A DNA stretch of 61,317 nt from Ammoniphilus oxalaticus. Its GTDB lineage: Bacteria; Bacillota; Bacilli; Aneurinibacillales; RAOX-1. The notes under the pieces were generated by a model. It was given only the letters and a program-made list of their open reading frames with translations, ran no database searches and was not told the origin of the DNA. The stretch covers positions 1-61,317 of the forward strand of contig NZ_MCHY01000010.1 in NCBI RefSeq assembly GCF_003609605.1. Direction: 5' to 3'. Positions 35,249 to 53,290 of the stretch are shown here, piece by piece (the first letter of the stretch is position 1; each line of letters starts with the position of its first letter). A program made the translations under genes and the position numbers.

Positions 35249-35431
35249 GATGACATAGGTTCCGAGTAGATGCTTGCTAGTTTATGATTCTACTTGGTTA
35301 ATAGGGAAGCAGGTGAAAGTCCTGCGCGGTCCCGCCACTGTAAAAGAAGAGTCCTTGCAGAGATACCACTGGGCAACTGGGAAGGTTGTAAGGATAATGA
35401 CGCTTGAGCCAGAAGACCTGCCTATCGTTCA
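35249..35431 (+). promoter_or_regulatory. cobalamin (B12) riboswitch
   Basis: The conserved cobalamin aptamer core is present in order: ATAGGTTCC near the 5' end, AATAGGGAAGCAGGTGAAA, CCTGCGCGGTCCC, the B12 box GCCACTGTAA (35336-35345), and AGAAGACCTGCCTAT near the 3' end. P1 pairs around 35254-35259 with 35420-35424. Binding of adenosylcobalamin or related cobalamin is expected to switch off the downstream gene through the terminator at 35503-35541. Confidence 0.93.
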
Positions 35432-35502
35432 TACACCATGAGACTCTACGGACGATGGAGGGGTGATGTAACAGGTGAAGCGAATGCCTTATTTCATACT
35501 GT

Positions 35503-35541
35503 AAATACCTCTTAACTTGGAGTTAAGGGGTATTTTTTGTG
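35503..35541 (+). terminator. riboswitch-controlled intrinsic terminator
   Basis: ATACCTCTTAACT and AGTTAAGGGGTAT form a 13-bp stem around a three-base loop, followed by TTTTTT. It lies between the aptamer and the start codon, so it is the expected expression platform. Confidence 0.88.
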
Positions 35542-35590
35542 CGTAAAGGAGTATTTTTGAACAACAATGAATATCAGTGGAGGCATATGA

Positions 35591-38500
35591 ATGTCGAATA
35601 GATTAAGTCCGACCCGTCGTTTAGGGTCAATTTTATTAAGTTTTGTACTTATTTTTCAATTGTTTGGCAGTTCTCTCGGTTATGCGGCGAATCAACATGA
35701 GGCTGCGGATTTAAGAAACTCTCGCGCGCTGGATGGAACAAGCGAGTTGGAAGATGATTCAGAGGCTAATGGACAAATAGAATCAATAGAATTAGTAGAG
35801 GCGGAAGAAGGAACAGAACTAGCTGATTCGAAGGATTCTTTGGAAGCGGACGATGCGCCTAAAGAAAGCGTTGAACAAGCCGTTGAACAAAATGATGATA
35901 AGAAATCATCTGAAGAATCATCTATGGATGAGCCAGAAGATGGAAAGGTTGTCGAAGAAAATGTGGAATTTACCAAGGAAGAATTTGAACTAGACGAAGC
36001 GCTACCAATCGTCTCTGCCAAAGAACAACTGGATAAAAATCTCGCTTTTCTTGTCGAAACGGTGGATAATCCAACGTTTGGCATGATTGAGGGAGAGTGG
36101 ACGATTCTGTCCTTAGCGCGAGCGAATTACACTGTGCCGCATGGATATTATGAACTCTACTACGAGAACGTGGAAAGAGAAGTTTCGATCGAGTTTGAGA
36201 AAGAACGAAATCAAGGGAAGCTGGATCGGAATAAAGGAACAGAACATTCTCGCTTGATTTTAGGCCTAACCGCAATCGGAAAAGGCTTTGACGATGTGGC
36301 AGGATATGACATAAGAGAGGCATTAGCCGATTTTGATTTTGTGACGAGACAAGGCATCAATGGTCCGATTTTCGCTTTGATCGCGCTGGATACAAAAGGG
36401 TTCGACGTCCCCGTTCAAGAAGGAATCGACAATCCGTTAACGAGGGACAAAGCGATTGATTATATTTTAGAACGTGAAATTGACGGCGGCGGGTGGGCTC
36501 TAGCTGGAAATATATCTGACCCTGATATTACTGGGATGGCGATTCAAGGATTGACGCCCTACTACGATACGCGTTCGGATGTAAAAGAAGCAGTCGATCG
36601 AGCGGTTGCTTGGTTGTCCGAAGCTCAGAAGGAAGACGGAAAATACGCAAGCTGGGGCGTGGTTAATAGCGAAAGCATCGCGCAAGTGATTGTTGCCTTG
36701 ACAGCGCTCGGGATTGACCCGCATACCGATGAGCGATTCATTAAAAATGGAACATCAGCAGTTGACGCATTGCTTACCTTTGCAATTCCAACGGGAGGAT
36801 TCGCTCATAACGTAGACGGCAGTGTCGACGGAATGGCGACAGAACAAGGAACTTACGCGCTGGTTGCTTATGACCGTTTTGTAAACGGGCAAAATCGACT
36901 GTACGATATGACGGACGTTGTTTCTCGTGAAGAACCAGCAGAAGACGATGGGAGTGGGGGTGACGAACAGCGTTTTTCAGTTAAAGAGCAACTTGATAAT
37001 ACGCTAGCCTATCTAGTTGAAACTGTAGACAACCCGGCAATTGGCACGATAGGCGGCGAGTGGACGATTCTCTCATTGGCTCGAGCAAACTATCTTGTGC
37101 CAGATGGTTATTATGATCGGTATTACCGAAACGCAGAAAATGAAGTTGCTAAAAAGTTCGAAGAAAATGAAGGAAAACTTGATGTACACAAAGGGACGGA
37201 GCACTCTCGCTTAATTTTAGGATTGACCGCCATTGGCAAAGACGTTGGTGATGTAGCGGGATACGACATTAAAGAAGCTTTGGCTGATTTTAACTATGTC
37301 AAATGGCAAGGGATTAATGGCCCAATCTTTTTCCTTATTGCGTTCGATACAAAAGGTTATGCCGTCCCAGCTAAGGCCGAGGTAGCGAATCAGACGACGA
37401 GGGAAAAGGCGATCAATTTTATTTTAGAAGAAGAGATTGACGGTGGTGGATGGGCTTTATGGGGGACTACTCCAGATGTTGACATTACAGGGATGGCGAT
37501 TCAAGCATTAACACCGTATTACGAATCTGACCCTAAAGTAAAAGCAGCCATCGATCGGGCGATTGATTGGTTATCTGACATCCAAGAGGCAGATGGAACC
37601 TATACTAGTTGGGGATCGCCAAATATTGAGAGTATTGCGCAGGTCATTGTAGCCTTAACAGGACTAAATATTGACCCGCATACGGATAAGCGATTTGTTA
37701 AGAACGGAACATCAGCGTTAGAGGCTTTACTTGCCTTTACAGCTTCAGAAGGTGGGTTCAAACATATATCGACTGGGAAAGTAGATCCCATGTCCACTGA
37801 TCAAGGAACCTACGCGTTAGTCGCTTATGACCGATTTGTAAACGGCGAAACTCGACTGTACGATATGACGGATGTTGTTTCCACGGAGGAACCGACAGAA
37901 GAGCCTGAAGAAAAGGATCCGAGTGAGTCATCGCTTACAGTCTCTGGTTTAACAGATGGCGAAAAAGTAACATCAAAAGAAATCACATTTACCATTAACG
38001 GCCAAAATGTGAAAGACCTGCTTGTCAAATTAAATGGGGAAACAATCACGGGAACGGACGGTACGTACCGCGCGACGCTAACGGACGGTAAAAATACGAT
38101 CACTATCGAAATAACCGATGCAGCGGGTAACAAGCGAGATGAGACGTACACCCTATTTTATGAGCGTACGAGTGGTTCACCGGGCAACACAAGTGACTCT
38201 TCTAAGAAAGGTTCAATCACACTATCCATCGACAAGCTCACGATAAATCGCGGCTATGTTTTACCAGCTACAACAGTTGAATTTAGCGCAGGCGAAAGCG
38301 TGTGGGATGTGCTGCGACGTGAAATGGATGAACGCGGTATATCTTACTCATCTTCGTTTTCAGGAAAATACAACAGCATTTACGTTGAATCGATCGCTGG
38401 CGACGGCGAATTTGATCATGGCAGCGGCAGCGGTTGGATGTACAATGTTAACGGTAAGTATCCTGATTATGGAGCGAGTAGACATACATTAAAAGACGGT

Positions 38501-40792
38501 GACGTTGTTCAATGGCGTTACACGACAAATCTAGGCCAAGACCTTGGACAGGACATGAGCCGCTGGGAAGACCAGCCTGTTCCAGGTGGTGGTGTTCCAG
38601 TCGCAAGGAAGCCAGGAGATAAAAATCCTGTCTTGCAAATTCCTGAGGATGTAAAAGAAGACCATACGGTCAAAATCTCTAAAGATTTGCTTGATACGGA
38701 AAATATTACGATCAAGCTTCCAAAGGGAGCGACAGCAAAACAATTTATCAATTTAGCGGATGTAAAGGATCGCATTCCAAAGGTGACGATTGAGGCTGAA
38801 GATAAAAGCTTTGTAATCGAGAAAGATACGAAGTTAATGTCGGGGAACGCGCTTTTGGAATTGTTTACTTCCCTAAGTAAGGATGAAAAAGTAGACGATA
38901 TCATTACAAAACAACATCCGGATCAGAGCATTAAAATCGAAGATGCTTTTTCGATGGGGAATGCTGAGGGGACAGTTATATTTGATAACCCTGTTACACT
39001 TACTTTGAAAGGGAAGGGTAAGCAAAATCATCAAGTCGGTTTCATTGAACAAGATGCGTTTACGCCGATTGAAATCTATGAATCGGACAAAGAAGGGCAA
39101 CGCGCCACAAAGGGTGAAAAACTACAAACGTATGCCTATGTGGATGGCGATGACCTCATTATTAAAACAAATCACTTTACGACGTTTGTTTTATATACAG
39201 AACAAAAGCTAGAGTCGGAAGTTAAATCGAGCGCAACAGCAGTTGAATTAAATCTCGCGAACATCTATAAAGACGCGGATCTCATTGCCAATTGGGCTTA
39301 TCCGTCGATTCAGGAAGCGACGCAAAGAGGTTTAGTAGGTGGCTACAATGGCAACATTCAACCAAAACACAATGTGACGCGGGCTGAGTTCGCGACGATG
39401 TTTGTTGGCGCGCTTGGCTTAGACAGCCCGACGGACAAGACGATTTCCTTCACGGACGTAAAAGAAGGCGATTGGTTCTATCCAGCGGTCAATGCCGCAT
39501 ATAAAGAAGGGATTGTATCCGGTTATGACGGCAAGTTCCATCCGAATAAGACGATTAGTCGTGAAGAGATGGCTTCGATGTTGCAACGAGGCTTGCGTTT
39601 AGCGGCGCAAGGCGATCCGATTTCCTTTGCGGATGAACAACGCATCGCTGACTGGGCGAAAGCAGCGACACAAGCGGTCGCCTCGACTGACATTATGGTT
39701 GGTTATGATGGCGCCTTCCATCCGAAAGATCAGGCGACGAGAGAGATGGCTGTTGTTGTCGCTTTGAAGGCGTACCATTATAATAGAGAGGGAGCGTTGC
39801 CTGTCGTTCAGCCAACGGTTGTTAAACCGACAGTTGAAGACAAGGAGCAACTTGTCCACAAGGACGTTCAACAACAGATCGCTCAAACAGCGGCTCATAT
39901 TCAGCAGACCAATCCATCTCCGATTGTCGCGACGATTGGCGGAGAGTGGTCCGTGTTTGGGGTCGCTCGTTCGGGAGAACCTGTTTCGAAACAATTCTAT
40001 GAGAACTACTATGCCAATTTAGAAAAAACGTTAACTGAAAAATCAGGCGTGCTGCACCGTGTGAAATATACGGAGTACGATCGCGTGATCTTGGCGTTAG
40101 CCGCGCTCGGTAAAGACATTACGAATGTGGCGGGCTATGACTTACGCGAACCGCTCGCTGATTTTGAGACGTTGACGATTCAAGGCATTAACGGTCCGAT
40201 TTTCGCCTTAATCGCATTAGATAGTCAAAACTATGAGATTCCAATCGTCGAAGGCGTGGCAACGCAAACGACGCGAGAGCGATTGATCGAATTTATTTTA
40301 AATCGAGAAATTGCGGGCGGCGGTTGGGCATTGGGCGAAAATCCAGTTCAAGCCGATCCTGATATTACAGGGATGGCGATTCAAGGCTTAACGCCTTACT
40401 ACGAGACGAATCCAGACGTTCGCGCGGCCGTTGATCGCGGCATTGCGTGGCTGTCCAAAGTCCAAAAGGCGGACGGCGGATTTGCGAGTTGGGGTTCAGT
40501 CAACTCAGAAAGTACAGCCCAAGTGATTGTCGCATTAGCTGGCCTGGGCATCGATCCGCATACGGATTCAAGGTTTGTCAAGAACGGCCAGTCGGTTGTT
40601 GATTCGCTGTTAAGTTTTGCGGTGTCTGGCGGTGGTTTTTATCACGTGAAGCCAGGCGGCGTAAGCAATGGCGGAGCGGAACCAGGCGTTGTCGATCCAA
40701 TGGCGACGGACCAATCTTTATACGCGCTCGTTGCGTATCAACGATTCGTGAACAAAGACAATCGTCTTTATGACTTAACCGATGTAAAATAA
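35591..40792 (+). CDS. SLH-anchored intrinsic-factor-like protein: three alpha/alpha toroids plus DUF4430
   Basis: A 1733-residue surface protein. In order: signal peptide (1-32), acidic linker (34-135), toroid 1 (about 137-447), toroid 2 (about 465-765), Ig-like module (about 780-860), DUF4430 (about 873-985; SGWMYNVNGKYPDYGASR), beta-rich region (about 1015-1205), three SLH repeats (about 1223-1400; NVTRAEFATM, TISREEMASM) and toroid 3 (about 1415-1733). Each toroid repeats the same landmarks: GEWTILSLARANY, EHSRLILGLTAIGK, QGINGPIF, GGGWAL, DITGMAIQ and IAQVIVAL. A toroid plus a DUF4430-type beta domain is the architecture of intrinsic factor and transcobalamin. The upstream B12 riboswitch and downstream ECF transporter argue for cobalamin capture at the cell surface. 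Ligand binding is inferred. Confidence 0.9.
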   Translation: MSNRLSPTRRLGSILLSFVLIFQLFGSSLGYAANQHEAADLRNSRALDGTSELEDDSEANGQIESIELVEAEEGTELADSKDSLEADDAPKESVEQAVEQNDDKKSSEESSMDEPEDGKVVEENVEFTKEEFELDEALPIVSAKEQLDKNLAFLVETVDNPTFGMIEGEWTILSLARANYTVPHGYYELYYENVEREVSIEFEKERNQGKLDRNKGTEHSRLILGLTAIGKGFDDVAGYDIREALADFDFVTRQGINGPIFALIALDTKGFDVPVQEGIDNPLTRDKAIDYILEREIDGGGWALAGNISDPDITGMAIQGLTPYYDTRSDVKEAVDRAVAWLSEAQKEDGKYASWGVVNSESIAQVIVALTALGIDPHTDERFIKNGTSAVDALLTFAIPTGGFAHNVDGSVDGMATEQGTYALVAYDRFVNGQNRLYDMTDVVSREEPAEDDGSGGDEQRFSVKEQLDNTLAYLVETVDNPAIGTIGGEWTILSLARANYLVPDGYYDRYYRNAENEVAKKFEENEGKLDVHKGTEHSRLILGLTAIGKDVGDVAGYDIKEALADFNYVKWQGINGPIFFLIAFDTKGYAVPAKAEVANQTTREKAINFILEEEIDGGGWALWGTTPDVDITGMAIQALTPYYESDPKVKAAIDRAIDWLSDIQEADGTYTSWGSPNIESIAQVIVALTGLNIDPHTDKRFVKNGTSALEALLAFTASEGGFKHISTGKVDPMSTDQGTYALVAYDRFVNGETRLYDMTDVVSTEEPTEEPEEKDPSESSLTVSGLTDGEKVTSKEITFTINGQNVKDLLVKLNGETITGTDGTYRATLTDGKNTITIEITDAAGNKRDETYTLFYERTSGSPGNTSDSSKKGSITLSIDKLTINRGYVLPATTVEFSAGESVWDVLRREMDERGISYSSSFSGKYNSIYVESIAGDGEFDHGSGSGWMYNVNGKYPDYGASRHTLKDGDVVQWRYTTNLGQDLGQDMSRWEDQPVPGGGVPVARKPGDKNPVLQIPEDVKEDHTVKISKDLLDTENITIKLPKGATAKQFINLADVKDRIPKVTIEAEDKSFVIEKDTKLMSGNALLELFTSLSKDEKVDDIITKQHPDQSIKIEDAFSMGNAEGTVIFDNPVTLTLKGKGKQNHQVGFIEQDAFTPIEIYESDKEGQRATKGEKLQTYAYVDGDDLIIKTNHFTTFVLYTEQKLESEVKSSATAVELNLANIYKDADLIANWAYPSIQEATQRGLVGGYNGNIQPKHNVTRAEFATMFVGALGLDSPTDKTISFTDVKEGDWFYPAVNAAYKEGIVSGYDGKFHPNKTISREEMASMLQRGLRLAAQGDPISFADEQRIADWAKAATQAVASTDIMVGYDGAFHPKDQATREMAVVVALKAYHYNREGALPVVQPTVVKPTVEDKEQLVHKDVQQQIAQTAAHIQQTNPSPIVATIGGEWSVFGVARSGEPVSKQFYENYYANLEKTLTEKSGVLHRVKYTEYDRVILALAALGKDITNVAGYDLREPLADFETLTIQGINGPIFALIALDSQNYEIPIVEGVATQTTRERLIEFILNREIAGGGWALGENPVQADPDITGMAIQGLTPYYETNPDVRAAVDRGIAWLSKVQKADGGFASWGSVNSESTAQVIVALAGLGIDPHTDSRFVKNGQSVVDSLLSFAVSGGGFYHVKPGGVSNGGAEPGVVDPMATDQSLYALVAYQRFVNKDNRLYDLTDVK

Positions 40793-40860
40793 AATACGTT
40801 TGTTGCAAAAGGAGGGTGGAAGAAATTTCACCCTTCTTTAAAATTAACGGAGGTGAAACG

Positions 40861-41814
40861 ATGAGAAACAAAAAGGTCATTTTTGGAGCGGTGATCGCCG
40901 TCCTGCTAATCTTAGCCTTTTTTATTGGAGGCGACCGCGATGTGACTCCCTTGCAATCGGAGGAGGCAAGCACAACCACGCGCCTTTCTGACAGCGGCGC
41001 TGATAATAACAAGGAAAAAGAAGAATCGGATTTCGAAGAGGAGACGGAAAAATCAGATTCAGCTGCGCAAACATCCGACGAAAAAGAAGTAAAACCAGCT
41101 GAAGAGGGTGAAGCGAAACAAGCAGCTGAGCAAGATTCCGTTGCGCAAGAAGGGAAGCAAACGCAAACAGCAGAACGCGCTCCACCGGAGCAAGCGACGC
41201 CAGCGAGTCCACCCGCGGCTCCCGTTGAGAAAAAGGTAGATCACGCGCCCGCCCAACAAAAAGCGGAAAAGGCAAAAATCATCGCTCAAGATCAGGCAAA
41301 CAAGGATAAAAAGGATAAGTACCTCACGGACCCTGTTCCCGCAGGAAAGCCAAAGCCTGTTGAACCGCAAGATGTCATCGTCGATAAAAAGAAACCATTG
41401 ACCGCGACGCTGTCCGTAACGAGTAAGACGATTTTAAACAATATGCATCTCTTCAATAAAAACAAGCTGGAGGTGCTGCCCGCAGACGGTGTCATTTACG
41501 CGCCGCGGAAGGTGACTTTTTATGAAGGAGAGTCTGTTTTTGATGTGCTGTTAAGAGAGATGCGCAGCAATAAAATTCATATGGAGTTTACGATGACGCC
41601 CGTCTACAATAGCCATTATATCGAAGGGATTAATAATATTTATGAGTTTGATTGCGGCGAACTGAGCGGTTGGATGTATAAAGTGAATGGCTGGTTCCCG
41701 AATTACGGGGCGAGTCGCTACTATTTGAAAGATGGCGACGTAATTGACTGGGTGTATACGTGTGACTTAGGTAGGGACATTGGCGGCGCAGCGGGGGTTA
41801 TAGGGGGACAATAA
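40861..41814 (+). CDS. membrane-anchored DUF4430 protein, probable B12 relay
   Basis: This encodes 317 residues from ATG 40861 with GGAGGTGA upstream. One N-terminal membrane helix (about 5-23) acts as an anchor. A long Glu/Ala/Lys/Pro-rich spacer (about 25-175) follows, able to cross much of the wall. A C-terminal DUF4430 domain (about 178-317) has FYEGESVFDVLLREM, LSGWMYKVNGWFPNYGASRY and VYTCDLGRDIGG. Two cysteines (FDCGELSG, YTCDLGR) could form a disulfide. It ends three bases before the EcfT gene. Its place suggests handover from surface protein to the transporter. Confidence 0.85.
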   Translation: MRNKKVIFGAVIAVLLILAFFIGGDRDVTPLQSEEASTTTRLSDSGADNNKEKEESDFEEETEKSDSAAQTSDEKEVKPAEEGEAKQAAEQDSVAQEGKQTQTAERAPPEQATPASPPAAPVEKKVDHAPAQQKAEKAKIIAQDQANKDKKDKYLTDPVPAGKPKPVEPQDVIVDKKKPLTATLSVTSKTILNNMHLFNKNKLEVLPADGVIYAPRKVTFYEGESVFDVLLREMRSNKIHMEFTMTPVYNSHYIEGINNIYEFDCGELSGWMYKVNGWFPNYGASRYYLKDGDVIDWVYTCDLGRDIGGAAGVIGGQ

Positions 41815-41816
41815 GC

Positions 41817-42710
41817 ATGACAAACGATCCTTTTGCTCGACTTCATCCAAGCATTATTTTTTTCTACTTTGTGTCCGTTATTTTATTTAGCATGTTTTTC
41901 ATGCACCCTATTTTTCAAGCGATTGCTTTTATTAGCAGTTTTACGTATTCGATTATGTTGAAAGGCAAAAAAGGGGTGACATTCAATCTCCTTTATTTAA
42001 TGCCGATGTTACTCGTTATGGCTATTTTAAACCCCGCGTTCAATCATCAGGGGGTCACGATTCTATTTTATTTAAAAAGCGGCAACCCGATTACGTTGGA
42101 ATCGATCTTGTACGGGGTGGCGGCGGCATTTATGTTTATCACTGTTATTTTATGGTTCTCCTGTTATAACGCGGTTATGACATCGGATAAATTTATTTAT
42201 TTGTTCGGCAAAATTATTCCAAAATTATCGTTGGTTTTTTCGATGACGTTGCGGTTTGTGCCGATGTATACCGAACAGCTGAAGGAAATCGCCCGCGCTC
42301 AAGAGGCGCTAGGCAGGGGCGTGGCGCAGGGAAATGTGATCCAGCGGGCAAAAAACGGGATGAACATTTTATCGATGATGACGACATGGGCCTTGGAAAA
42401 TGCGGTCGAAACAGCAGACTCGATGAATTCAAGGGGCTATGGTCTGCCCGGCAGAACGAGTTTTTCCATCTTCCGTTTTGATCAAAGGGACAAACTTATG
42501 CTGCTCGCCCTGATCGGATTGGATGCAACCATTTTCATCGGCGCGGCAATGGGAGAGAATACGATTCGATTTTATCCTTCGATAACGTTAGCGGATCTGA
42601 CGTTGTTCAGTCTGGCCATCTATCTAGCCTATTTTATTTTTTGCGTCATACCGATACTTCTACATCTACAGGAGGCTATGAAATGGAAGCGTATCGAATC
42701 GAGCATGTAA
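41817..42710 (+). CDS. ECF transporter transmembrane component EcfT
   Basis: A 297-residue polytopic membrane protein of the CbiQ/EcfT family. It links the S component to the two ATPases. The cytoplasmic coupling-helix signatures are visible: ARAQEALGRGV and ADSMNSRGYGLPGRT. ATG follows GGGGGACA. It overlaps the ATPase gene by 28 bases, so translation is coupled. Most bacilli share one EcfT among many S components; this one is dedicated to a B12-riboswitch operon. Confidence 0.88.
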   Translation: MTNDPFARLHPSIIFFYFVSVILFSMFFMHPIFQAIAFISSFTYSIMLKGKKGVTFNLLYLMPMLLVMAILNPAFNHQGVTILFYLKSGNPITLESILYGVAAAFMFITVILWFSCYNAVMTSDKFIYLFGKIIPKLSLVFSMTLRFVPMYTEQLKEIARAQEALGRGVAQGNVIQRAKNGMNILSMMTTWALENAVETADSMNSRGYGLPGRTSFSIFRFDQRDKLMLLALIGLDATIFIGAAMGENTIRFYPSITLADLTLFSLAIYLAYFIFCVIPILLHLQEAMKWKRIESSM

Positions 42711-44359
42711 ATTTTACGTATCCCGAAGCGGACGAGCAGGCGCTAAAAGACGTTACGCTGATCATTGAGAGCGGCGAATTTGTGACCGTGTGCGGGCGGT
42801 CTGGATCTGGAAAAAGCACGTTGTTACGGCATTTGAAGCCAGTCCATACGCCGCATGGGAAGCGAACAGGAGATATTTTTTTCTTTCAGGAGCCATTGGA
42901 GAAGCTGGACCCGCGTAGACAAGTGTCGGAAATCGGGTTTGTGTTTCAAAACCCGGACAATCAATTAGTGACTGAAAAGGTTTGGCATGAGCTCGCGTTT
43001 GGTTTGGAAAGTTTAGGATACGATCAACAGGCGATCCGACTTCGCGTCGCGGAAATGGCGAGTTACTTCGGAATACATACGTGGTTTCATCAGAAGGTGA
43101 CAGACTTGTCGGGCGGTCAAAAGCAGATTCTAAATTTGGCGTCGATTATGGCGATGCAACCTGCTGCGCTCGTGTTGGATGAACCGACCTCTCAACTGGA
43201 TCCGATTGCGGCCGCTAACTTTTTAGACACGTTAAAAAAGATCAATCGCGAGCTTGGGGTCACGATTATTTTATCGGAGCACCGTTTGGAGGAAGTCGCG
43301 CCCATTTCCGATCGACTGTTTGTGATGGATGAGGGACGGCTGATCGCTGATGGGACGCCAAGAGAAGTGGGCGTGCGATTAAATCAGATCAACCACCCGA
43401 TGTTTTGGGCGATGCCGACCGCGCTGCGTCTAGCAAAAGGCGTGGAAGACGCAGCGGATTGTCCACTAACGATCAATGAAGGACGACGCTGGATCGATCA
43501 CTACATGAAGGATAAACAACATCATTACACGGCGCCTGCCGGGCAAGAGGGTGACGCGCTTGAATCGAACAAGCCTGTTATCGAGTTGAAGGAAGTATGG
43601 TTCCGCTATGAGAAGAAGTCAACGGATATCATCAAAGATTTATCGCTGACGATCCGACAAGGGGAGTTTTGTTGCATCGTCGGGGGCAACGGCGTCGGTA
43701 AATCAACCGCGCTATCGGTGATCAGTGGGTTGAATACGCCGTATCGGGGACGCGTCTTCTTACATGGCAAAGAAGCGCGTAAGATTCCAGTCAAGGAGCG
43801 GTTTACGAATAACTTAGGGATTCTCCCGCAAGACCCGAAGAGCTTATTTTTGAAGAAGACGGTAGAACTCGACTTAAGGGAGATGATTGCCGAAAGCCGC
43901 ATGAGTGAAGAAGAGCGGGAGCGAAGGATTAGGGACGCGTTGGCGTTGGCCGAATTAGAAGATAAGCGTTCGATGCATCCGTATGATTTAAGCGGAGGCG
44001 AGCAACAGCGGGCGGCGCTTGCAAAAGTGTTATTATTGGAGCCACAGATATTGTTGCTGGATGAACCGACAAAAGGACTGGACGCCTTTTATAAAGAGAA
44101 ATTCGCTGAGATGCTGCTTAAGCTAAAGCAGCAAGGGGTGACGATTGTGATGGTTTCGCATGATATTGAGTTTTGCGCCAAATTTGCGGATACATGCGCC
44201 CTGTTTTTTGATGGAAGTATCGTCACGAAAAATGAGACGAGAATGTTTTTTGCGGGGAACAGTTTTTATACGACCGCGGCTAACCGCATCGCCCGGCATA
44301 TTTGCCAAGAAGTCGTTACGACCGAGGATGTGATTGAACTATGTCGGACAAGCAGCTAA
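42683..44359 (+). CDS. fused EcfA-EcfA' ATPase of ECF transporter
   Basis: This encodes 558 residues from ATG 42683, with AGGAGG upstream. Two complete ABC ATPase domains lie in tandem. Domain 1: Walker A GRSGSGKST, signature LSGGQKQ, Walker B LVLDEPTSQLD, H-loop ILSEHRL. Domain 2: Walker A GGNGVGKST, signature LSGGEQQR, Walker B LLLDEPTKGLD, H-loop MVSHDIE. Usual group II systems have EcfA and EcfA' as separate genes; the fusion is typical of dedicated systems. It overlaps EcfT upstream (28 bases) and the S component downstream (19 bases). Confidence 0.92.
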   Translation: MEAYRIEHVNFTYPEADEQALKDVTLIIESGEFVTVCGRSGSGKSTLLRHLKPVHTPHGKRTGDIFFFQEPLEKLDPRRQVSEIGFVFQNPDNQLVTEKVWHELAFGLESLGYDQQAIRLRVAEMASYFGIHTWFHQKVTDLSGGQKQILNLASIMAMQPAALVLDEPTSQLDPIAAANFLDTLKKINRELGVTIILSEHRLEEVAPISDRLFVMDEGRLIADGTPREVGVRLNQINHPMFWAMPTALRLAKGVEDAADCPLTINEGRRWIDHYMKDKQHHYTAPAGQEGDALESNKPVIELKEVWFRYEKKSTDIIKDLSLTIRQGEFCCIVGGNGVGKSTALSVISGLNTPYRGRVFLHGKEARKIPVKERFTNNLGILPQDPKSLFLKKTVELDLREMIAESRMSEEERERRIRDALALAELEDKRSMHPYDLSGGEQQRAALAKVLLLEPQILLLDEPTKGLDAFYKEKFAEMLLKLKQQGVTIVMVSHDIEFCAKFADTCALFFDGSIVTKNETRMFFAGNSFYTTAANRIARHICQEVVTTEDVIELCRTSS

Positions 44360-45075
44360 CGGGCGGGAATCGAACAAAACGAACGGCTTTGTCCGCCTTT
44401 TTTATTTTGTTCGTTATTCCGCTCACGATTTTTGTAGGAATCTTTTTTTTAAATGATCGAAAGTACTACTTTATTAGTTTGTTGATCATCACATACACTT
44501 TGATTCCATTCGCGATGGTGTTTGAAAAGAGGGAGCCGCAAGCACGCGAATTGATTATTATCGCGGTTCTCGCTTCGATTGGCGTTGCGGGGAGGGCTGC
44601 ATTTTTCATGTTGCCGCAGTTTAAACCGGTTGTCGCGATTGTGATCATTACGGGGATTAGTTTAGGAGCGGAAGCGGGGTTTTTGGTCGGGGCGACGGTC
44701 GGCTTCGTTTCTAACTTCTTTTTCGGGCAAGGGCCTTGGACCCCGTGGCAAATGTTTTGCTTTGGAATTATTGGCTTTTTGGCGGGTATTTTATTTCAAA
44801 AAGGCTGGCTCAAAAAAACGAAGCTTTCTTTGTGCATTTACGGCGGACTAGCGACCTTTTTCATTTATGGGGGATTGATCAATCTTGGCAGTCTGCTCAT
44901 GTTTACCGCTGAGTTTTCCTGGAAGGCTTTGCTTGCCGCGTATATTTCAGGCTTTGGGTTTGATCTTGTGCATACGATCGCGACTGTCTTTTTCTTATAC
45001 GTCATCTCGCAGCCTTTTATTGAAAAGATCGATCGGATGAAGGTGAAATATGGTTTGTTGGATGGAAGGGAGTGA
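44341..45075 (+). CDS. ECF transporter S component, probably for cobalamin
   Basis: A 244-residue integral membrane protein with about six to seven helices. N-terminal KRTALSAFFILFVIPLT is followed by a conserved-looking loop with FKPVVAIVIITGISLGAEAGFLVGA and the glycine/aromatic FFFGQGPWTPWQMFCFGIIGF, as seen in S components of several vitamins. I do not match it to a named B12 S component (CbrT, BtuM); the substrate is inferred from the riboswitch and from the toroid/DUF4430 proteins. The start overlaps the ATPase gene. A terminator ends the operon. Confidence 0.82.
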   Translation: MSDKQLTGGNRTKRTALSAFFILFVIPLTIFVGIFFLNDRKYYFISLLIITYTLIPFAMVFEKREPQARELIIIAVLASIGVAGRAAFFMLPQFKPVVAIVIITGISLGAEAGFLVGATVGFVSNFFFGQGPWTPWQMFCFGIIGFLAGILFQKGWLKKTKLSLCIYGGLATFFIYGGLINLGSLLMFTAEFSWKALLAAYISGFGFDLVHTIATVFFLYVISQPFIEKIDRMKVKYGLLDGRE

Positions 45076-46881: not shown

Positions 46882-47394
46882 ATGCGTAAACGTAAACTTT
46901 TAGCGGTATTGACGACAATGGCCTTAGCGACTGCAGCTGTACCCGCTTTTGCGGAAACGCCAGATTCAGAGGTGACCGAAGAGGCCGTGGAGACGACAGA
47001 AGCAGAGACTGCCGATGATGAGGTGGCTGAAGATACGGAAGCTGTGGAAGCGGTAGACACGACAGAATCAGAGGTTGCGGAAGAGGACGCTGAGAGCGCA
47101 GAGGCGGAAGTAGCGCCAGCCCCACAACCAACGATTCCGCCAGTTAGCGAAAAGGTAAGAGTTGGTTACATTCTTAACGATAAAGAAGAAGCTACTACAC
47201 ACACTTACACCTATTATGTCGTATCCCATTCACCGCAAGGGAAATCGTATTGGGCAACAAGCATAGACGGATCAAAGAGTCTTTGGTTCCATGCGCACGA
47301 AAACAAAGGCGAATATCTTAATGTGAACGACAATTTCAAAGCAACCTTTGATAAGCAAGGTAGATTGCTATCCATCGAAAAAGTTAATTTATAA
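46882..47394 (+). CDS. exported acidic protein of unknown function
   Basis: 170 residues after AAAGGAGAAGG. A signal peptide (1-24) ends in AFA. An acidic Glu/Thr/Val/Ala-rich low-complexity region (about 25-80) is followed by a Pro linker and a small domain (about 88-170) with VGYILNDKEEATTHTYTYY and SIDGSKSLWFHAHENKG. No known family was recognised. It has its own terminator and its own gap upstream, so it is a single-gene unit. Confidence 0.72.
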   Translation: MRKRKLLAVLTTMALATAAVPAFAETPDSEVTEEAVETTEAETADDEVAEDTEAVEAVDTTESEVAEEDAESAEAEVAPAPQPTIPPVSEKVRVGYILNDKEEATTHTYTYYVVSHSPQGKSYWATSIDGSKSLWFHAHENKGEYLNVNDNFKATFDKQGRLLSIEKVNL

Positions 47395-48124: not shown

Positions 48125-48262
48125 CATGGGCGGATCGTCTTATCAGGATATAGGCGATAATTTTAAAATATGAGCGAGGATATTTAAATATAGGCGACAA
48201 TTTCAGGATATAAGCGACTATCGTGGCGATATGGGCGAGTCTGCTGATATCTCGGCGGGATT
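48125..48262. repeat. degenerate tandem 20-bp repeats, second array
   Basis: Units begin at about 48125, 48148, 48168, 48188, 48208, 48229 and 48247; typical unit ATATAGGCGACAATTTCAGG. They are the reverse complement of the units at 22725-22845. Contiguous, variable and spacer-free. Confidence 0.7.
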
Positions 48263-48280
48263 TGGCCTTTCTAAAGAGGA

Positions 48281-48312
48281 AAAAAGAGTTGCCCCAAAGG
48301 GACAACTCTTCT
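48281..48312 (-). terminator. intrinsic terminator after the 941-residue gene
   Basis: AGAGTTGTCCC pairs with GGGGCAACTCT, followed by TTTTTT on the minus strand. Confidence 0.85.
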
Positions 48313-48323
48313 ACATATCGATG

Positions 48324-51149
48324 TTATTCGGTTAAATGGTCCACAAGTTTCATGGCTACGACAGCCGCCATTTCTCGTGTGACAAAATCGTTTGGTTGGA
48401 AGTACCCGTCATAACCAACCATGAATTTATTCGCGTAAACGGCAGTGATCGACGCTTTCGCGTAATCTTTCGCCTGTGTTAGATCCTTAATTTGTCCGTC
48501 TGCTGTTGCTGTTTCAAGATGTAATGCGTTGTTTAACATCACAGCTAAGTCTTGACGTGTGATCGACGCGTTCGGAGCAAAGCTGTCTGTCGAAACGCCT
48601 TGGACCCAGCCTTTTGAATAAGCGCCTGTGACATAGCCGTCATACCAAGAACCGCTAACAACGTCCGCAAAAGTAGAATTGCCTGCTTCAGCTGGCGTTT
48701 CGTCTAATACATGGTGTAACAAAGTCACGAATTGCGCCCTCGTTAAGCGGTTTTTCGGTTCAAACATTGGGATATCCGCGTTTGTGCCAGACATGATTTT
48801 TAAATCATGCGCTCGGTAAACGGCGTCTTTTGCCCAGTCCGCGATTTGCGCGTCATCCACGTAGTTCGTACGCGCTTCTTCGATAGTCGGTTGTGACACC
48901 GCCGGTCCAGCCAATTGATAGATTGAACCTTTGCCTTGCGTGTACAAATCGTAAGCGACAAGGGCTGCCAATGCTTGTTCGGTTGCCATTGGATTCGTTC
49001 CGTTTCCTTTTATGTGAGCAAACCCGCCGTCGGCTTGTTGATAGCTGAGTAGCGCGGAAAGCAGGTCGCCGTCCGCTTTTACAAAACGGGCGTCTAGCGA
49101 ATTCACGCCAAGCGCGCTAAGTCCTTGAATCACTTGGGCGATGCTCTCGCTCGATGTTTCTCCAAATTCTTCATACCCGCCATTTTTTAGTTGGGTAGCG
49201 GATAAATACTCAATCGCTTTCTCGATCGCCTTGCTTACGTTTGGTTGTTCCTGTTGGTATGGAGCGAGCGCGGACAAAGCCATTGCTGTAATGTCTATGC
49301 TGCTGTCGCTATTAGCTCCCAATGGCCAACCGCCATCTTTGTTTTGACGGTCAAGCAGCCAGTCAATTAGCTTCGTTCTGTCCCACTTGGCGTTGCTAGG
49401 TACATCATAGTTTTTACTATCTAAGGCGATTAAAGCAAAAATCGCTCCGTTTGTGCCTTGCGCTGTTAGATTTTCATGATTGTAGATCTTTTCAATTAAG
49501 TTATACCCTGCGATCGCCTTTGGATCGGCTCCTGCGGCGCTCACGCCAAGTACCATCCGCTCTAAGTCGGTTACTTTACGGAAGCTACCTTGGTTATCTG
49601 TTAGCGTCTTTTCAACGGTTGGCAGATACGAAGCTGGGATGTTCGCGCCTGCGCGGTAAAGAGCGAATGCTTCCCAGTCGGAAATAGCTTGTCGTTTTGA
49701 GATATGATCGACTGTTTTGTTTATGTTCGCAGAGACATCTCGTTTCGTTAAAGATAATTTATTGCGATCGATTACCGCAAATTGAGTGAAGTGATCGACT
49801 AGCCCGGTGACGACACCTGTACTCGCATCAATGACAGCTGGAATCGGAATCCACTCGTTTGTTGTTTCGTCTAACCAGACCAAAGCGAGTTGACTTAAAT
49901 CAGCCACCTCTAATGGCGCTTGAATCGAAATGAAAACTGGTTCTTTAAACTTCAATCCTTTTGGACCAAACGTGTAAATTGCTGAAACAACCTCAGGTCG
50001 ACTTGGTATTTGCTTTTGTACACTGATCGTTGTTTGAGTGGCCAATGCATCAGCGGGAATGATTAAGCTGACCTCGTTTTCCTTATCGGCAATCGTCTTG
50101 GCTTGGCCGGGTTGAACGGTTTCCGAAAGTTGAATCTTATTCTTTTGCAGCGTTTCCTTGAGTTGCTTTATTTTTTCTGCTGTCATCTTGGTGTCTTTTT
50201 TAATAACGTTAATGACAGGTTCTGTCGTATCTTTTAAAGGCGTTTTGTTATTGGCTGGGAGCTTAATATCTTTTAAAGCATCCTCTTGATCCTTGGATAA
50301 TGTACCACCACCCGTTGTTGGCGCTCCTCCTTTAATGGCCTCCTTAACGCCTAGATCATTCCCGCCATCTTTCGTATATTTCCATTCGACTCGATCACCG
50401 GGATTTAACGTAACAGCCCCAGCGCTTTCGGATGGGGAAATATTATTTACAAAAAACAACCAACCGCTTAAAGGTCCATGATCAAACTCGCGCAGGCCAG
50501 CGATACCATTGACGTACACTGTACTACCTGAACCGCTTGCTTGGACGGAAGCGCCTAATGCGCGAATCAGCACGGAATAAGGCGTGTCGTTTGTTTTGAA
50601 ATCAACTTGTTGACTAGAAAAGATGGTCCCCGAAACCCCATGAACACTTAGTGTGACGGATTGCTTCGCAGGTGTTCCACCACCATCTGGGGTTGTTCCA
50701 GGGTTAGGAGGATTGGTGGTAGGAGGCGTACCCTCGTTATTTTCATTACCTGGATCGGGATCGACGGGCTTAACACCACCATTATCATCTTCTTGCTTTT
50801 GATCGTCAGGGGAGGGGACGGCAGTGAACTCTTTCGTTGCAATTGTCGTTCCTCGTCCTATTTGAACTTTGTAATCTCCTTCCTTGGCGGAGGAGGGCAA
50901 TTTAAAGCTTAAGCTGTATTTCCCGTTAGCGGGTTTAATTTGATCAATATAAAGGAGTGTTCCGTTTGGTTGATAAATTTTAACGATTAATTCAGATAGA
51001 GATGTATTCCCATTCAATTGTACGGTCTGTCCTAGGTTCGTTTGAGCGATTTCATTAATTGTAATCTTCTCTGCCCCAAGCGCATGGATCGGGAACAAAC
51101 TAACTAGAAGTGTTAAAGTGAGTAAAATTCGTAAAAATCTACTTTTCAT
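48324..51149 (-). CDS. SLH-anchored intrinsic-factor-like protein (DUF4430 then toroid)
   Basis: 941 residues. A signal peptide (1-25), an Ig-like module (about 28-115), a Pro/Gly linker, DUF4430 (about 163-272; HGPLSGWLFFVNNISPS), a beta-rich module (about 290-465; FGPKGLKFKEPVFISIQAP), an alpha/alpha toroid (about 470-735; TAQGTNGAIFALIALD, KDGGWPLG, DITAMALSALAPY, SIAQVIQGLSALG) and three SLH repeats (about 755-941; NRLTRAQFVTLL, SITRQDLAVML). Domain order is reversed relative to intrinsic factor. It lies 59 bp after a terminator that ends the next protein's gene, so readthrough from the B12 riboswitch promoter is possible. Cobalamin binding is inferred. Confidence 0.88.
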   Translation of the reverse strand: MKSRFLRILLTLTLLVSLFPIHALGAEKITINEIAQTNLGQTVQLNGNTSLSELIVKIYQPNGTLLYIDQIKPANGKYSLSFKLPSSAKEGDYKVQIGRGTTIATKEFTAVPSPDDQKQEDDNGGVKPVDPDPGNENNEGTPPTTNPPNPGTTPDGGGTPAKQSVTLSVHGVSGTIFSSQQVDFKTNDTPYSVLIRALGASVQASGSGSTVYVNGIAGLREFDHGPLSGWLFFVNNISPSESAGAVTLNPGDRVEWKYTKDGGNDLGVKEAIKGGAPTTGGGTLSKDQEDALKDIKLPANNKTPLKDTTEPVINVIKKDTKMTAEKIKQLKETLQKNKIQLSETVQPGQAKTIADKENEVSLIIPADALATQTTISVQKQIPSRPEVVSAIYTFGPKGLKFKEPVFISIQAPLEVADLSQLALVWLDETTNEWIPIPAVIDASTGVVTGLVDHFTQFAVIDRNKLSLTKRDVSANINKTVDHISKRQAISDWEAFALYRAGANIPASYLPTVEKTLTDNQGSFRKVTDLERMVLGVSAAGADPKAIAGYNLIEKIYNHENLTAQGTNGAIFALIALDSKNYDVPSNAKWDRTKLIDWLLDRQNKDGGWPLGANSDSSIDITAMALSALAPYQQEQPNVSKAIEKAIEYLSATQLKNGGYEEFGETSSESIAQVIQGLSALGVNSLDARFVKADGDLLSALLSYQQADGGFAHIKGNGTNPMATEQALAALVAYDLYTQGKGSIYQLAGPAVSQPTIEEARTNYVDDAQIADWAKDAVYRAHDLKIMSGTNADIPMFEPKNRLTRAQFVTLLHHVLDETPAEAGNSTFADVVSGSWYDGYVTGAYSKGWVQGVSTDSFAPNASITRQDLAVMLNNALHLETATADGQIKDLTQAKDYAKASITAVYANKFMVGYDGYFQPNDFVTREMAAVVAMKLVDHLTE

Positions 51150-51175
51150 TTCAAACCTCTCTTTCCTTAAGAAAC

Positions 51176-51205
51176 TAAACCCGACTGGTAGGTCGGGTTT
51201 AACTT
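51176..51205 (-). terminator. intrinsic terminator between the two minus-strand B12-type genes
   Basis: AAACCCGAC and GTCGGGTTT pair around a six-base loop, followed on the minus strand by AGTTTCTT. The weak T-run may allow partial readthrough into the 941-residue gene. Confidence 0.7.
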
Positions 51206-51208
51206 TTG

Positions 51209-52921
51209 TTACTGTCTTAGTTCAATTGGAAAAGCAAGCGTCTTTCCAATGTTCATGGGATTAGTTAATTGATCAAGTAAAAGCACTTTGACTCTATAAT
51301 CATCATCTTCAGATACGTTGAAAAAGGCCGACACTTCTTTTTCAGCTTCTATCGATTCTTTTAGGGATACCATACTAATTGGTTCTTCATCTTTGAATAG
51401 TTGAAAAACAATATATACAGGATCATTATCTTTATCATCGACTTGAGAGATTTTTGTAGTTATATATATTCCGCTTTCCCACTGAATCGATGCCGAATTA
51501 ATCTCATAAGGTTTTAGAGCAGGAGGAATGTCTCCCGCATAGTGAATTTCACTATAGAGAGTTGACTCTCCCTTATCATAAAAAAGATTTAAAGCAGCTA
51601 ACGCCTGCAATGCTTGTGGTGTTGCAAAGAGGTCTTCTTTACCGCCTTGTTTGCTGCTGAAAGCGCCGTTATCTAGTTGAAAACTTAATAGATCAGTAAC
51701 AGGGTTGTTTCCATTCTTTTTTGTAAATTCAATCCCTTGTGGATCCTCGCCTGCAGCTGTTAAAGCCTGAATGACTTGCGCGGAAGATTGGCTGTTATGT
51801 CCAGTAAACATGTCGATATACCCGCCATTGTCAGCTTGCATTTCTTTCAAGACTTGAATACCTTGGTTAATTGCTTCTTCAACTTCAGGTCGATTTTTGT
51901 GTGGGGCTAAAGCATAAATTCCCATTGCTGTCATATCTACAGTCGGTTCGTCCCCAAAAAAGGTCCAACCACCTTTAGCCAGCTTCCCCTTAACAATTTG
52001 CTCAATTAGTATCTCGCGTGTCAGCTGCGTATCAGCGGTCTCTTCCGCTTTCGCGGTATCTAAAGCAATGAGAGCAAAGAAGCTAATGTTAATTGAAGGG
52101 TTCGAATAATTTTGCAATTCTTTGACTAGGTTATTTCCGCCAAAAGATGTCGGATCGTAACCTAATGATTGAATAGCTAAAATAGATTTTGGAATTTGCC
52201 CCTTGTTCGCTATTAAATTTCTATCTAGTAGAACTTCCGCGTAAGAATGATCATTGGTGGTGTAAGGACCGCGATTAATATCTTCACCTAAGGAGTTTAG
52301 CGCCAGTACTACATCATCATTTCCTGGTACCCCTTTTTCGCGGTAATAGTTAATTATTTTATTTGTAGCTTTTTCTATTTCTTGCGTCAGTACATTGGTA
52401 TCTTCTATCTCCGCGTTGTCTTTGGGTTCATCGACTTCCTCTTCGTCTTGGTCCCAAGTCCCCCATTCCGTATAATACACAACGATCTCATCATCGTCTT
52501 GCACTGGGAATTGAGCCATTCCAAGGTCATAAACTCTTTCATCTAAGGTTTCATTTCGATAAACGCTATACAGCCATCCACCAGTTTCGTTCGAGATAAT
52601 CTCGTTAATGGCCTCAATGTAGGGGGTGTCATACGAATGATTCACTTCGTAGGTTATATCCTCTTCATCTAAAACTTCGATCAACGCATCGTAGGCTGTA
52701 GTTTCCCGACCTTCGATATTCTCTAACGTAATCGGTCTTTCTAGGATCACGTCATCTTTGGCTTCAACACGAATTGAGACGGTTGTTGTATTCTCGGTCG
52801 TTACCTGCGCATCAACTTCTACCCCATCCGCCTTAACCAAGCCAGCTGGCGTGATCAGCGAAAAGATCATCGCAAACATGACCAACCACGAGAGCCATAT
52901 ATGTTTCACTTTGTAATTCAT
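51209..52921 (-). CDS. secreted intrinsic-factor-like protein (DUF4430 plus toroid)
   Basis: 570 residues from ATG 52921 (GAGGAGGAAAG upstream); the longer frame to 52990 would cross the terminator. A signal peptide (1-32), DUF4430 (about 45-165; TTAYDALIEVLDEEDI, TGGWLYSVYRNE), an alpha/alpha toroid (about 190-480; SINISFFALIALD, KGGWTFFG, DMTAMGIYALAP, QSSAQVIQALTAAG, NGAFSSKQGG) and a C-terminal beta domain (about 490-570). It has no SLH or transmembrane anchor, so it may be released or held by partners. It is directly behind a cobalamin riboswitch. With 570 residues it is close in plan to animal transcobalamin but with domains in reverse order. Confidence 0.87.
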   Translation of the reverse strand: MNYKVKHIWLSWLVMFAMIFSLITPAGLVKADGVEVDAQVTTENTTTVSIRVEAKDDVILERPITLENIEGRETTAYDALIEVLDEEDITYEVNHSYDTPYIEAINEIISNETGGWLYSVYRNETLDERVYDLGMAQFPVQDDDEIVVYYTEWGTWDQDEEEVDEPKDNAEIEDTNVLTQEIEKATNKIINYYREKGVPGNDDVVLALNSLGEDINRGPYTTNDHSYAEVLLDRNLIANKGQIPKSILAIQSLGYDPTSFGGNNLVKELQNYSNPSINISFFALIALDTAKAEETADTQLTREILIEQIVKGKLAKGGWTFFGDEPTVDMTAMGIYALAPHKNRPEVEEAINQGIQVLKEMQADNGGYIDMFTGHNSQSSAQVIQALTAAGEDPQGIEFTKKNGNNPVTDLLSFQLDNGAFSSKQGGKEDLFATPQALQALAALNLFYDKGESTLYSEIHYAGDIPPALKPYEINSASIQWESGIYITTKISQVDDKDNDPVYIVFQLFKDEEPISMVSLKESIEAEKEVSAFFNVSEDDDYRVKVLLLDQLTNPMNIGKTLAFPIELRQ

Positions 52922-52950
52922 TTCTTTCCTCCTCATTTTTTGAATTAAAA

Positions 52951-52981
52951 AGACGCCCCTACAAAAAAAGAGGACGTCTCG
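52951..52981 (-). terminator. expression-platform terminator of the second B12 riboswitch
   Basis: On the minus strand AGACGTCC pairs with GGGCGTCT (one wobble), followed by TTTTT. It lies between the aptamer and the start codon at 52921. Confidence 0.75.
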
Positions 52982-53052
52982 ATTGATCATATTACAAAAT
53001 GACGCGTGTTTAGATCGCTTTCAACAGCCACTCCCTATAACCCGTAGGTGAT

Positions 53053-53240
53053 GTGTCTATCTTTATCTAGCGGCAGGTCTCCTGACTTAGCGTCAACTCG
53101 CTTGTTTCTCCTTCCCAACCTTAATATGATCAGTGGACTTTTTGAAATAGCGATCAGCTTCACAGTGGCGGGGACCGTGTCGGAATTGTAACCGACTTCC
53201 CTTTTAAAACACGAATAAATAATGTTACCGATAGAAAAAT
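53053..53240 (-). promoter_or_regulatory. cobalamin (B12) riboswitch, minus strand
   Basis: Read on the minus strand: TCTATCGGTAAC at the 5' side, AAAAGGGAAGTCGGTTACAA, CCGACACGGTCCCC, the B12 box GCCACTGTGA (plus-strand 53161-53170), then AAGTCAGGAGACCTGCC near the 3' end. P1 forms between TCTATC and GATAGA. It precedes the 570-residue protein gene and should repress it when cobalamin is plentiful. Confidence 0.93.
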
Positions 53241-53260
53241 ATATGTAATTGTCTACGGTG

Positions 53261-53290
53261 ATCATAACCTAGGGTGTTATTTTCTGTCAA
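53261..53290 (-). promoter_or_regulatory. promoter for the second B12 riboswitch
   Basis: On the minus strand TTGACA (53290-53285) and TATGAT (53266-53261) are 18 bp apart, close to the sigma-A consensus, just upstream of the aptamer. Confidence 0.7.

Follow-up and report, generated by a model that had tools for sequence, protein, structure and literature searches.

Two cobalamin riboswitch-led units of Ammoniphilus oxalaticus predicted to capture vitamin B12 at the cell surface and import it through a CbrT-type ECF transporter

Introduction

The gathering of vitamin B12 (cobalamin) outside the cell is poorly described in Gram-positive bacteria, and a bacterial origin of the animal B12 carriers has been proposed since 2007. 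Burroughs et al. defined the SLBB superfamily, described toroid-SLBB fusions in bacteria in both domain orders, noted second paralogous SLBB proteins and CbiO/CbiQ-like operons in hosts that usually lack B12 synthesis, and proposed B12 scavenging by Gram-positive bacteria, lateral transfer to animals and the ancestry of the animal carriers (PMC1796856). A membrane route for the vitamin is provided by CbrT, which was predicted in 2009 (cited in PMC5997447) and is a proven B12 S component of an energy-coupling factor (ECF) transporter in Lactobacillus delbrueckii that transports cobalamin and cobinamide (PMC5997447). Here we describe a locus of Ammoniphilus oxalaticus in which exported proteins composed of alpha/alpha toroids and DUF4430 (SLBB) domains are encoded together with an ECF transporter under two cobalamin riboswitches. 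The window, that is, the whole stretch of DNA analyzed, is the complete 61,317-base contig C10.

The central idea is already published, and the locus is a member of the kind predicted in 2007; no experimental test of these bacterial proteins was found in the open-licence literature. What is new is the nested co-occurrence of the components, the riboswitch coupling, the CbrT identity of the S component, the conservation ranking of the operon parts, and the fold comparison with its shortfall. We state with good confidence that the locus serves to capture B12, or a corrinoid close to it, and to import it by the ECF route. This and the other degrees of confidence expressed below are judgements and were not computed.

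Results

Layout of the locus

The genome (3.32 Mb in 13 contigs, 99.93% complete) carries the system as two units (Table 1). Unit 1, on the plus strand, comprises riboswitch 1 and the genes for P0001, P0002, EcfT (P0003), the fused EcfA-A' ATPases (P0004) and the S component (P0005); in gene order, the first two junctions are gaps of 23 and 2 bases, and the last two are overlaps of 28 and 19 bases. Unit 2, on the minus strand, comprises riboswitch 2, P0009 and P0008, with 59 bases between the two genes. An earlier note, made from the sequence alone, had placed the system at 35249-53290, which was borne out to within a few bases, and had described two B12 riboswitches, both of which matched RF00174 far above the gathering score, as well as a single overlapping operon for EcfT, EcfA-A' and the S component, which was confirmed by Pfam and NCBIfam matches and by the two overlaps. 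A consensus scan found no terminator-like stem on the transcribed strand in either riboswitch leader.

Pfam matches and alignments also confirmed three exported proteins (P0001, P0008 and P0009) that unite an alpha/alpha toroid and DUF4430 in a single chain, two of them anchored through S-layer homology (SLH) repeats and one secreted. The only DUF4430 matches in a whole-genome scan were these three proteins and P0002, and hydropathy indicated an N-terminal hydrophobic segment in all four. Family searches detected no SLH repeat in P0009 and no family for its C-terminal beta region. The DUF4430 of P0009 reached 21.5 bits in the window scan, below the Pfam cut-off of 23.8, and 24.7 bits in the whole-genome scan; its assignment is marginal by sequence, and the predicted fold supports it. 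P0002 has one hydrophobic helix (residues 21-39), a spacer of about 150 residues rich in Ala, Glu, Lys, Asp and Pro, and a DUF4430 domain, as expected of the membrane-anchored DUF4430 protein with a long spacer that the note had pictured.

The S component is of the CbrT type

When P0005 was compared with PDB sequences, its best solved relative was CbrT (6FNP_A, E 1.5e-13), followed only at E 1.9 by 4HZU_S. Its sole Pfam match was to the riboflavin S-component model (27.5 bits, cut-off 26.7), and its sole NCBIfam match was to the folate S-component model (18.4 bits, cut-off 60). The longest frame of P0004 begins with TTG at 42641, and the probable start is the ATG at 42683, which is preceded by AGGAGG.

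Fusions involving these subunits were seen elsewhere. EcfA-A' and CbrT lie in one frame of 794-1024 amino acids (aa) in L081, L082, L083, L084 and L085. In one genome, CbrT stands in a single 737-aa frame (L086 4613-6826, minus strand) together with a hydrophobic segment, a toroid and SLH repeats; the hydrophobic segment resembles a signal peptide, and the toroid may be cut free.

Riboswitches accompany the related loci

A search seeded with the window's toroids yielded 70 loci from Paenibacillus, Cohnella, Clostridium, Terrisporobacter, Romboutsia and others, which are the best of 212 stretches, chosen by toroid similarity, and are uninformative as to the frequency of DUF4430 without a toroid. 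In 58 of the 70, EcfT and EcfA-A' came after the gene for the tethered DUF4430 protein. In 60 loci a cobalamin riboswitch preceded a toroid or DUF4430 gene by no more than 1 kb, and an adenosylcobalamin (AdoCbl) variant in 3 more raised the count to 63/70, where the chance of a match in a random 1-kb stretch is about 2.5% (67 matches in 1.36 Mb, two strands). Of the 15 training sequences of the riboswitch model (R1), 11 came from 7 of the 70 loci searched; when those 7 are subtracted, the counts are 53/63 and, with the AdoCbl type, 56/63. The seven loci with no riboswitch match were L044, L049, L067, L070, L074, L075 and L080; cmscan covered 15 of the 70 loci (7 + 8), a set to which L067 and L075 do not belong, and in L067, L070 and L075 no more than about 110 bases separate the cluster's first gene from the beginning of the stretch.

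Two further arrangements were noted. One Clostridium tagluense cluster (L034) has three cobalamin riboswitches (1799-1978, 2782-2969 and 5152-5326) within about 3.5 kb upstream, and a ZMP/ZTP riboswitch (L021 5326-5405) is found near the B12 locus of Paenibacillus sp. 1_12.

DUF4430 occurs with CbrT across genomes

We examined 299 genomes of the class Bacilli, in which CbrT was present in 103 and DUF4430 in 104; both were present in 103, CbrT alone in 0, and neither in 195, the single DUF4430-only genome being G112 (E 4.1e-4). The two genes were less than 5 kb apart, start to start, in at least 98 of the 103 genomes, a count that took in 102 of them (the row for G156 was left out); the exceptions were G122 (5.2 kb), G091 (577 kb), and G137 and G216 (other contig). 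Among 199 genomes of the phylum, CbrT was detected at E<=1e-8 in 59 and DUF4430 in 62, with both in 57; at this threshold CbrT occurred without DUF4430 in G375 and G449, and the reverse was seen in G312, G417, G465, G470 and G488. At E<=1e-3, 10 genomes of the phylum sample were CbrT-only. A toroid was found at E<=1e-12 in 44 of the 299 class genomes, all 44 among the 103 with CbrT, which leaves 59 genomes with DUF4430 and CbrT and no toroid match; a minimal pair is L091, in which a 132-aa DUF4430 protein lies beside CbrT in a genome with no toroid match. Counted by genus, CbrT was present in 37/117, DUF4430 in 38/117 and the toroid in 24/117. The genomes of both samples are mutually related, and Fisher values do not represent independent trials. 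Based on these counts, we conclude that the pairing of DUF4430 and CbrT is near-obligatory and that the distribution is nested, with DUF4430 and CbrT as the core and the toroid as an addition in fewer than half.

Predicted folds resemble the animal B12 carriers

A ligand-free model of P0009, built with 60 sequences (predicted local distance difference test [pLDDT] 82.8, predicted template-modelling score [pTM] 0.71), was searched with Foldseek. Transcobalamin with cobalamin ranked first (E 2.0e-5), transcobalamin chains made up 9 of the first 13 matches, and intrinsic factor was within the top 50. The beta domain of the model aligned with the human transcobalamin beta domain bound to cyanocobalamin (5NP4) with a template-modelling (TM) score of 0.78 by target length and a root-mean-square deviation (rmsd) of 2.9 over 112 columns, and with 5NO0 at TM 0.76, while the toroid aligned with intrinsic factor at Z 18.1 and rmsd 3.4 over 239 residues (VIA-align). 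We also modelled, without ligand, an orthologous P0001 segment that has the transcobalamin domain order (L057:6281-7450; pLDDT 93.4, pTM 0.90). Foldseek ranks 1-15 were all occupied by transcobalamin, haptocorrin or intrinsic factor (E 2e-11 to 2e-8), and rank 16 had E 4e-5.

Sequence comparisons with the PDB gave fainter signals. A 47-sequence DUF4430 profile searched against 177,635 PDB sequences placed transcobalamin-1 (haptocorrin) at rank 1 (E 0.085) and transcobalamin-2 at rank 3 (E 0.53), matches that are individually weak and telling as ranks. A profile of the window's four DUF4430 domains returned weak, unrelated toxin matches only (E >= 0.26), which we take as chance or a shared beta-grasp. 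A direct search with the P0009 sequence gave nothing up to E 1, and the matches listed for the toroid profiles were cyclases, prenyltransferases and complement-type proteins, with no B12 carriers. The ranks of the DUF4430 profile and of the Foldseek searches support the relationship of both domains to intrinsic factor and transcobalamin that the earlier note had drawn.

The tethered DUF4430 domain is highly conserved

In the relatives of P0002, a hydrophobic helix serves as the anchor or, in certain clostridia, a lipobox-like Cys does, and the spacer is widely variable, mostly 118-253 residues long; because both vary, the kept feature seems to be the reach across the wall and not the spacer sequence. 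The tether DUF4430 has cysteines in EFDCG and YTCDLG, the second of which was present in 56/59 sequences and both in 45/59, and in the DUF4430 domains of toroid-bearing chains His occupies the first of these Cys positions in 39/72. The conserved cysteines of the tether are considered as a candidate cobalt ligand or disulfide.

Mean pairwise identity was determined for the 37 loci, mostly Paenibacillus, from which all seven segments could be cut out, a ranking that sets single domains beside whole subunits. The tethered DUF4430 (0.787) was the most conserved of the seven operon segments, above the transporter itself, and was followed by CbrT (0.744), EcfA-A' (0.684), the last toroid (0.675), EcfT (0.664), the S-layer DUF4430 (0.578) and the first toroid (0.472). 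This conservation points to a dedicated partner of CbrT, and in our reading the tethered DUF4430 may touch both B12 and CbrT. Correlations between distance matrices of the operon parts (0.43-0.80) were rejected as evidence of contact, since shared ancestry would give the like.

A second B12 route in the same genome

Four cobalamin riboswitches were found in the genome, two in the window and two that lead metE and a BtuFCD-like operon. The metE gene, for the B12-independent methionine synthase (L009 7678-9975, contig C6), lies under the riboswitch with the genome's highest score (L009 7330-7523, 131.5 bits). The BtuFCD-like operon (contig C13) has BtuF-, BtuC- and BtuD-like genes, a second BtuF-like protein, and cob genes for cob(I)yrinic acid adenosyltransferase, cobyrinic acid a,c-diamide synthase and the N-terminal half of cobyric acid synthase; the last of these (L010 8338-9171) matches positions 2-233 of a 480-position model and looks truncated. 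The BtuF and BtuC matches are below the NCBIfam cut-offs, and the ATPase of the operon passes only a heme-transporter model, so that its assignment to B12 rests on the riboswitch and the cob genes. Nine PF01497 (BtuF-like) proteins were found in the genome, none of them on the window contig. The earlier note had supposed a system without BtuB and BtuF. BtuB is an outer-membrane protein and is not expected in a monoderm; as to BtuF, and with the reservation just made on the assignment of the operon, the supposition was wrong for this organism, given the BtuFCD-like operon under its own riboswitch.

The note had also proposed to look for B12 synthesis genes. The marker CbiC (PF02570), the single one tested, was not found in the genome, and a control search detected it in 7 of 14 genomes; the genome does have some late cob genes. 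B12-binding domains occur in four proteins, including MetH and methylmalonyl-CoA mutase. The organism is a B12 user that, judging from its gene content, is probably unable to make the vitamin from scratch.

Features of the window and neighbouring genes

The coordinates of all features are collected in Table 1. The genes between the two units (an S41 peptidase and P0007) were considered as part of the system and left out, as no link to B12 was seen.

Table 1. Features of the B12 locus in window coordinates
Feature	Position	Strand	Basis
Cobalamin riboswitch 1 (RF00174)	35242-35439	+	Covariance-model score 101.8 bits, gathering 31.5
P0001, 1733-aa exported protein: toroid 1, toroid 2, Ig-like, DUF4430, three SLH, C-terminal toroid 3	35591-40792	+	Translation, Pfam, toroid alignment
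P0001 toroid 1, residues 136-447	35996-36931	+	Toroid alignment
P0001 toroid 2, residues 458-768	36962-37894	+	Toroid alignment
P0001 DUF4430, EFDHG-SGWMYNVNG type	38186-38560	+	Pfam 8.7e-18, alignment
P0001 three SLH repeats, limits approximate	39248-39790	+	PF00395, three stretches, 1.5e-32
P0001 C-terminal toroid 3, residues 1415-1733; more conserved toroid position in relatives	39833-40789	+	Toroid alignment
P0002, membrane-tethered DUF4430 protein (332 aa)	40816-41814	+	Hydropathy, Pfam
P0002 DUF4430 domain	41377-41805	+	Pfam
P0003, EcfT (CbiQ-like) subunit	41817-42710	+	PF02361 8.3e-08
P0004, fused EcfA-EcfA' ATPases	42683-44359	+	Two ABC_tran stretches (Pfam), NCBIfam ECF ATPase
P0005, S component of CbrT type	44341-45075	+	PDB relative 6FNP_A
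Terminator-like stem, 14 pairs, T-rich tail, just after P0008	48282-48312	-	Consensus scan
P0008, 941-aa exported protein: DUF4430, one toroid, three SLH	48324-51149	-	Translation, Pfam
P0009, 593-aa secreted protein: DUF4430, one toroid, C-terminal beta region	51209-52990	-	Translation, Pfam, model
Cobalamin riboswitch 2 (RF00174), leader of P0009-P0008 unit	53055-53247	-	116.2 bits, gathering 31.5
Sigma-70-like promoter match, 11/12, for P0009-P0008 unit	53261-53290	-	Consensus scan

Between the two units, at 46882-47394 on the plus strand, is a gene for a 170-aa protein with an N-terminal hydrophobic stretch followed by an acidic Glu/Thr/Ala-rich stretch, which had no match in Pfam or NCBIfam. 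Back to back with the second unit, an S-adenosylmethionine (SAM) riboswitch (53376-53528, plus strand, 54.6 bits) lies directly upstream of a gene (53651-54868, plus strand) that appears S-adenosylmethionine synthetase-like from a reading of its translation.

Discussion

The riboswitches, the CbrT-type S component and the co-occurrence data support B12 as the ligand, as the earlier note had proposed, and B12 uptake by the locus as a whole is very likely. The locus would be a second, surface-extended B12 route beside the BtuFCD-like route. By analogy with the animal carriers, we think it probable that DUF4430 and toroid bind B12 together, and we hold the chances to be even that the vitamin is relayed in the order S-layer, tether, CbrT. 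In the mechanism that we envisage, both riboswitches, which we infer to be cobalamin-repressed, would permit expression when B12 is scarce; unit 1 would then supply the S-layer-anchored capture protein P0001, the tethered P0002 and a complete ECF transporter (P0003-P0005), and unit 2 a second S-layer-anchored capture protein (P0008) and a secreted one (P0009). DUF4430, as the counterpart of the transcobalamin beta domain, would take up B12, and the alpha/alpha toroid would close over it and add affinity, in the manner of intrinsic factor and transcobalamin. The tethered DUF4430, spanning the wall, would receive B12 from the outer proteins and hand it to CbrT, a direction and order that we infer, and ATP hydrolysis by EcfA-A' would drive B12 inward.

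Toroid 3 of P0001 has no DUF4430 beside it, and the tethered protein has a DUF4430 and no toroid. Given this complementarity, one could envisage, tentatively and with the balance tilting against it, an intrinsic factor split in trans, in which B12 closes the S-layer toroid 3 on the tethered DUF4430 and so bridges S-layer and membrane, after which the DUF4430 docks on CbrT as its dedicated delivery partner. If so, the DUF4430-CbrT core would be the older part, and the toroids would have been added to it later to raise affinity.

Several observations weigh against the capture of B12 by a carrier-like pair of domains that feeds the transporter. The second Foldseek match of P0009 was protein farnesyltransferase, itself an alpha/alpha toroid (E 2.1e-5), and the toroid alone scored higher with terpene cyclases (squalene-hopene cyclase, VIA-align Z about 21-22) than with B12 carriers (about 18). 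Only 1 of 44 toroids matched the animal Pfam model PF01122 (Cobalamin_bind) at E<=0.01, and that one at 18.0 bits, below the cut-off of 25. Over the whole chain, the ligand-free P0009 model, with its domain order reversed, superposed on the B12-bound (holo) carriers with an rmsd of 15.5-19 Å; the L057 segment, in which the toroid precedes DUF4430, had been expected to show the holo arrangement and did not (rmsd 21.7-23.6 Å, TM about 0.45, likewise ligand-free). Finally, the L. delbrueckii ECF-CbrT works in Escherichia coli and as a purified complex, apparently without a DUF4430 protein (PMC5997447), and our profile scan found no DUF4430 in the E. coli control genome, which argues that the extracellular parts are not strictly needed.

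The models share the two folds of transcobalamin; the placement of the domains differs, and the closed holo arrangement is not reproduced. The transcobalamin comparison suggested by the earlier note came out in favour of the two folds, by Foldseek ranks, and lent no support to the closed interface, with an rmsd of 15.5-19 and 21.7-23.6 Å in the two ligand-free models. Published work on transcobalamin found that its two domains assemble only in the presence of cobalamin, and a structure of its beta domain alone with cobalamin exists (PMC5599065; also PMC11107200). Because the domains need cobalamin to assemble, a ligand-free model is neither a fair refutation nor support for the interface.

Among other explanations, the same parts might chiefly carry another cobamide or an incomplete corrinoid such as cobinamide, to be finished by the cob genes. 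Two routes in one genome hint that the substrates are divided between them, the BtuFCD-like operon includes the three cob genes listed above (the one for cobyric acid synthase only in part), and CbrT of L. delbrueckii is described as transporting cobinamide as well (PMC5997447); however, the cob genes adjoin BtuFCD and not this operon, and nothing in the window points to corrinoid remodelling, and we regard this cargo as unlikely. That the outer proteins mainly withhold B12 from competitors, as a secreted sink and an S-layer store, instead of feeding the transporter is in our judgement quite improbable: P0009 has no recognized anchor and is encoded with P0008 in a riboswitch unit of its own that lacks a transporter, yet P0001 shares an operon with the transporter, and the tethered DUF4430 and EcfT occur together in 58/70 loci.

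Sequence profiles and VIA-align Z values for the lone toroid favour squalene-hopene and other terpene cyclases, and the toroid proteins might be extracellular enzymes, terpene-cyclase-like or glycoside-active, leaving B12 to DUF4430 and CbrT. This is very improbable in view of the confinement of the toroids in the class sample to CbrT genomes (44/44), their sharing of chains with DUF4430 in the window, and the retrieval of B12 carriers at Foldseek ranks 1-15 by the orthologue with both domains. In addition, the last Asp of the cyclase DVDD stretch, which we take to belong to the catalytic motif, is aligned to Ile in the toroid profile. SLH domains are prominent in P0001 and P0008, as are Ig-like domains (noted for P0001), and one might view the extracellular proteins as structural S-layer parts that are unrelated to B12 and merely co-regulated; we give this almost no credence, since DUF4430 tracks CbrT in 103/103 class genomes, 59 of them with no toroid match, as in L091.

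Should capture and import of B12 be the function of the locus, DUF4430, which the Pfam version consulted still lists as a "domain of unknown function", could be given a name as the extracellular partner that handles B12 for ECF-CbrT in much of Bacillota. For experimental work the locus has compact pieces suited to expression (P0009, the P0002 domain and P0001 segments) together with its two riboswitches.

How does the locus compare with known systems? BtuFCD likewise captures B12 outside the membrane and imports it at the expense of ATP, and in this organism both routes are under cobalamin riboswitches, but the two are built from different protein families and the genome has both. Like ECF-CbrT of L. 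delbrueckii (6FNP), the locus has EcfT, a pair of EcfA domains and an S component, the last with homology to CbrT across residues 64-238; it differs in the N-terminal extension of P0005, which has two hydrophobic segments, in the fusion of EcfA and EcfA', and in having its own operon with extracellular DUF4430 proteins. The term DUF4430 does not appear in the text of the paper on ECF-CbrT (PMC5997447).

Animal transcobalamin, intrinsic factor and haptocorrin (2BB5, 4ZRP, 2PMV and 4KKI) have both domain folds in common with the bacterial proteins, with about 10-20% identity in structural alignments. Unlike the animal carriers, the bacterial proteins are anchored and multi-copy, P0009 and P0008 have the reversed domain order, and the models lack the closed holo arrangement; moreover, animal carriers are endocytosed with their receptor, whereas the bacterial proteins would feed an importer of the ATP-binding cassette (ABC) type. 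RUMGNA_00854 of Ruminococcus gnavus, known by its title as a "putative metal binding protein" (3U7Z), aligns with the L057 model across about 104 columns at a TM of 0.70 by target length. In size it corresponds to the DUF4430 part, and with 96-97 residues the chain has no toroid. The closest likeness is to the clade of Burroughs et al., with secreted SLBB (DUF4430) and toroid, a second SLBB paralogue, CbiO/CbiQ-like genes and a host in which CbiC was not found. The words "riboswitch" and "S-layer" are absent from the text of that paper (PMC1796856), which predates the 2009 prediction of CbrT. Beyond that description, the present locus adds riboswitch control, the CbrT identity of the S component, SLH anchoring, three toroids per chain, the conservation of the tether, genome-scale co-occurrence and modelled folds.

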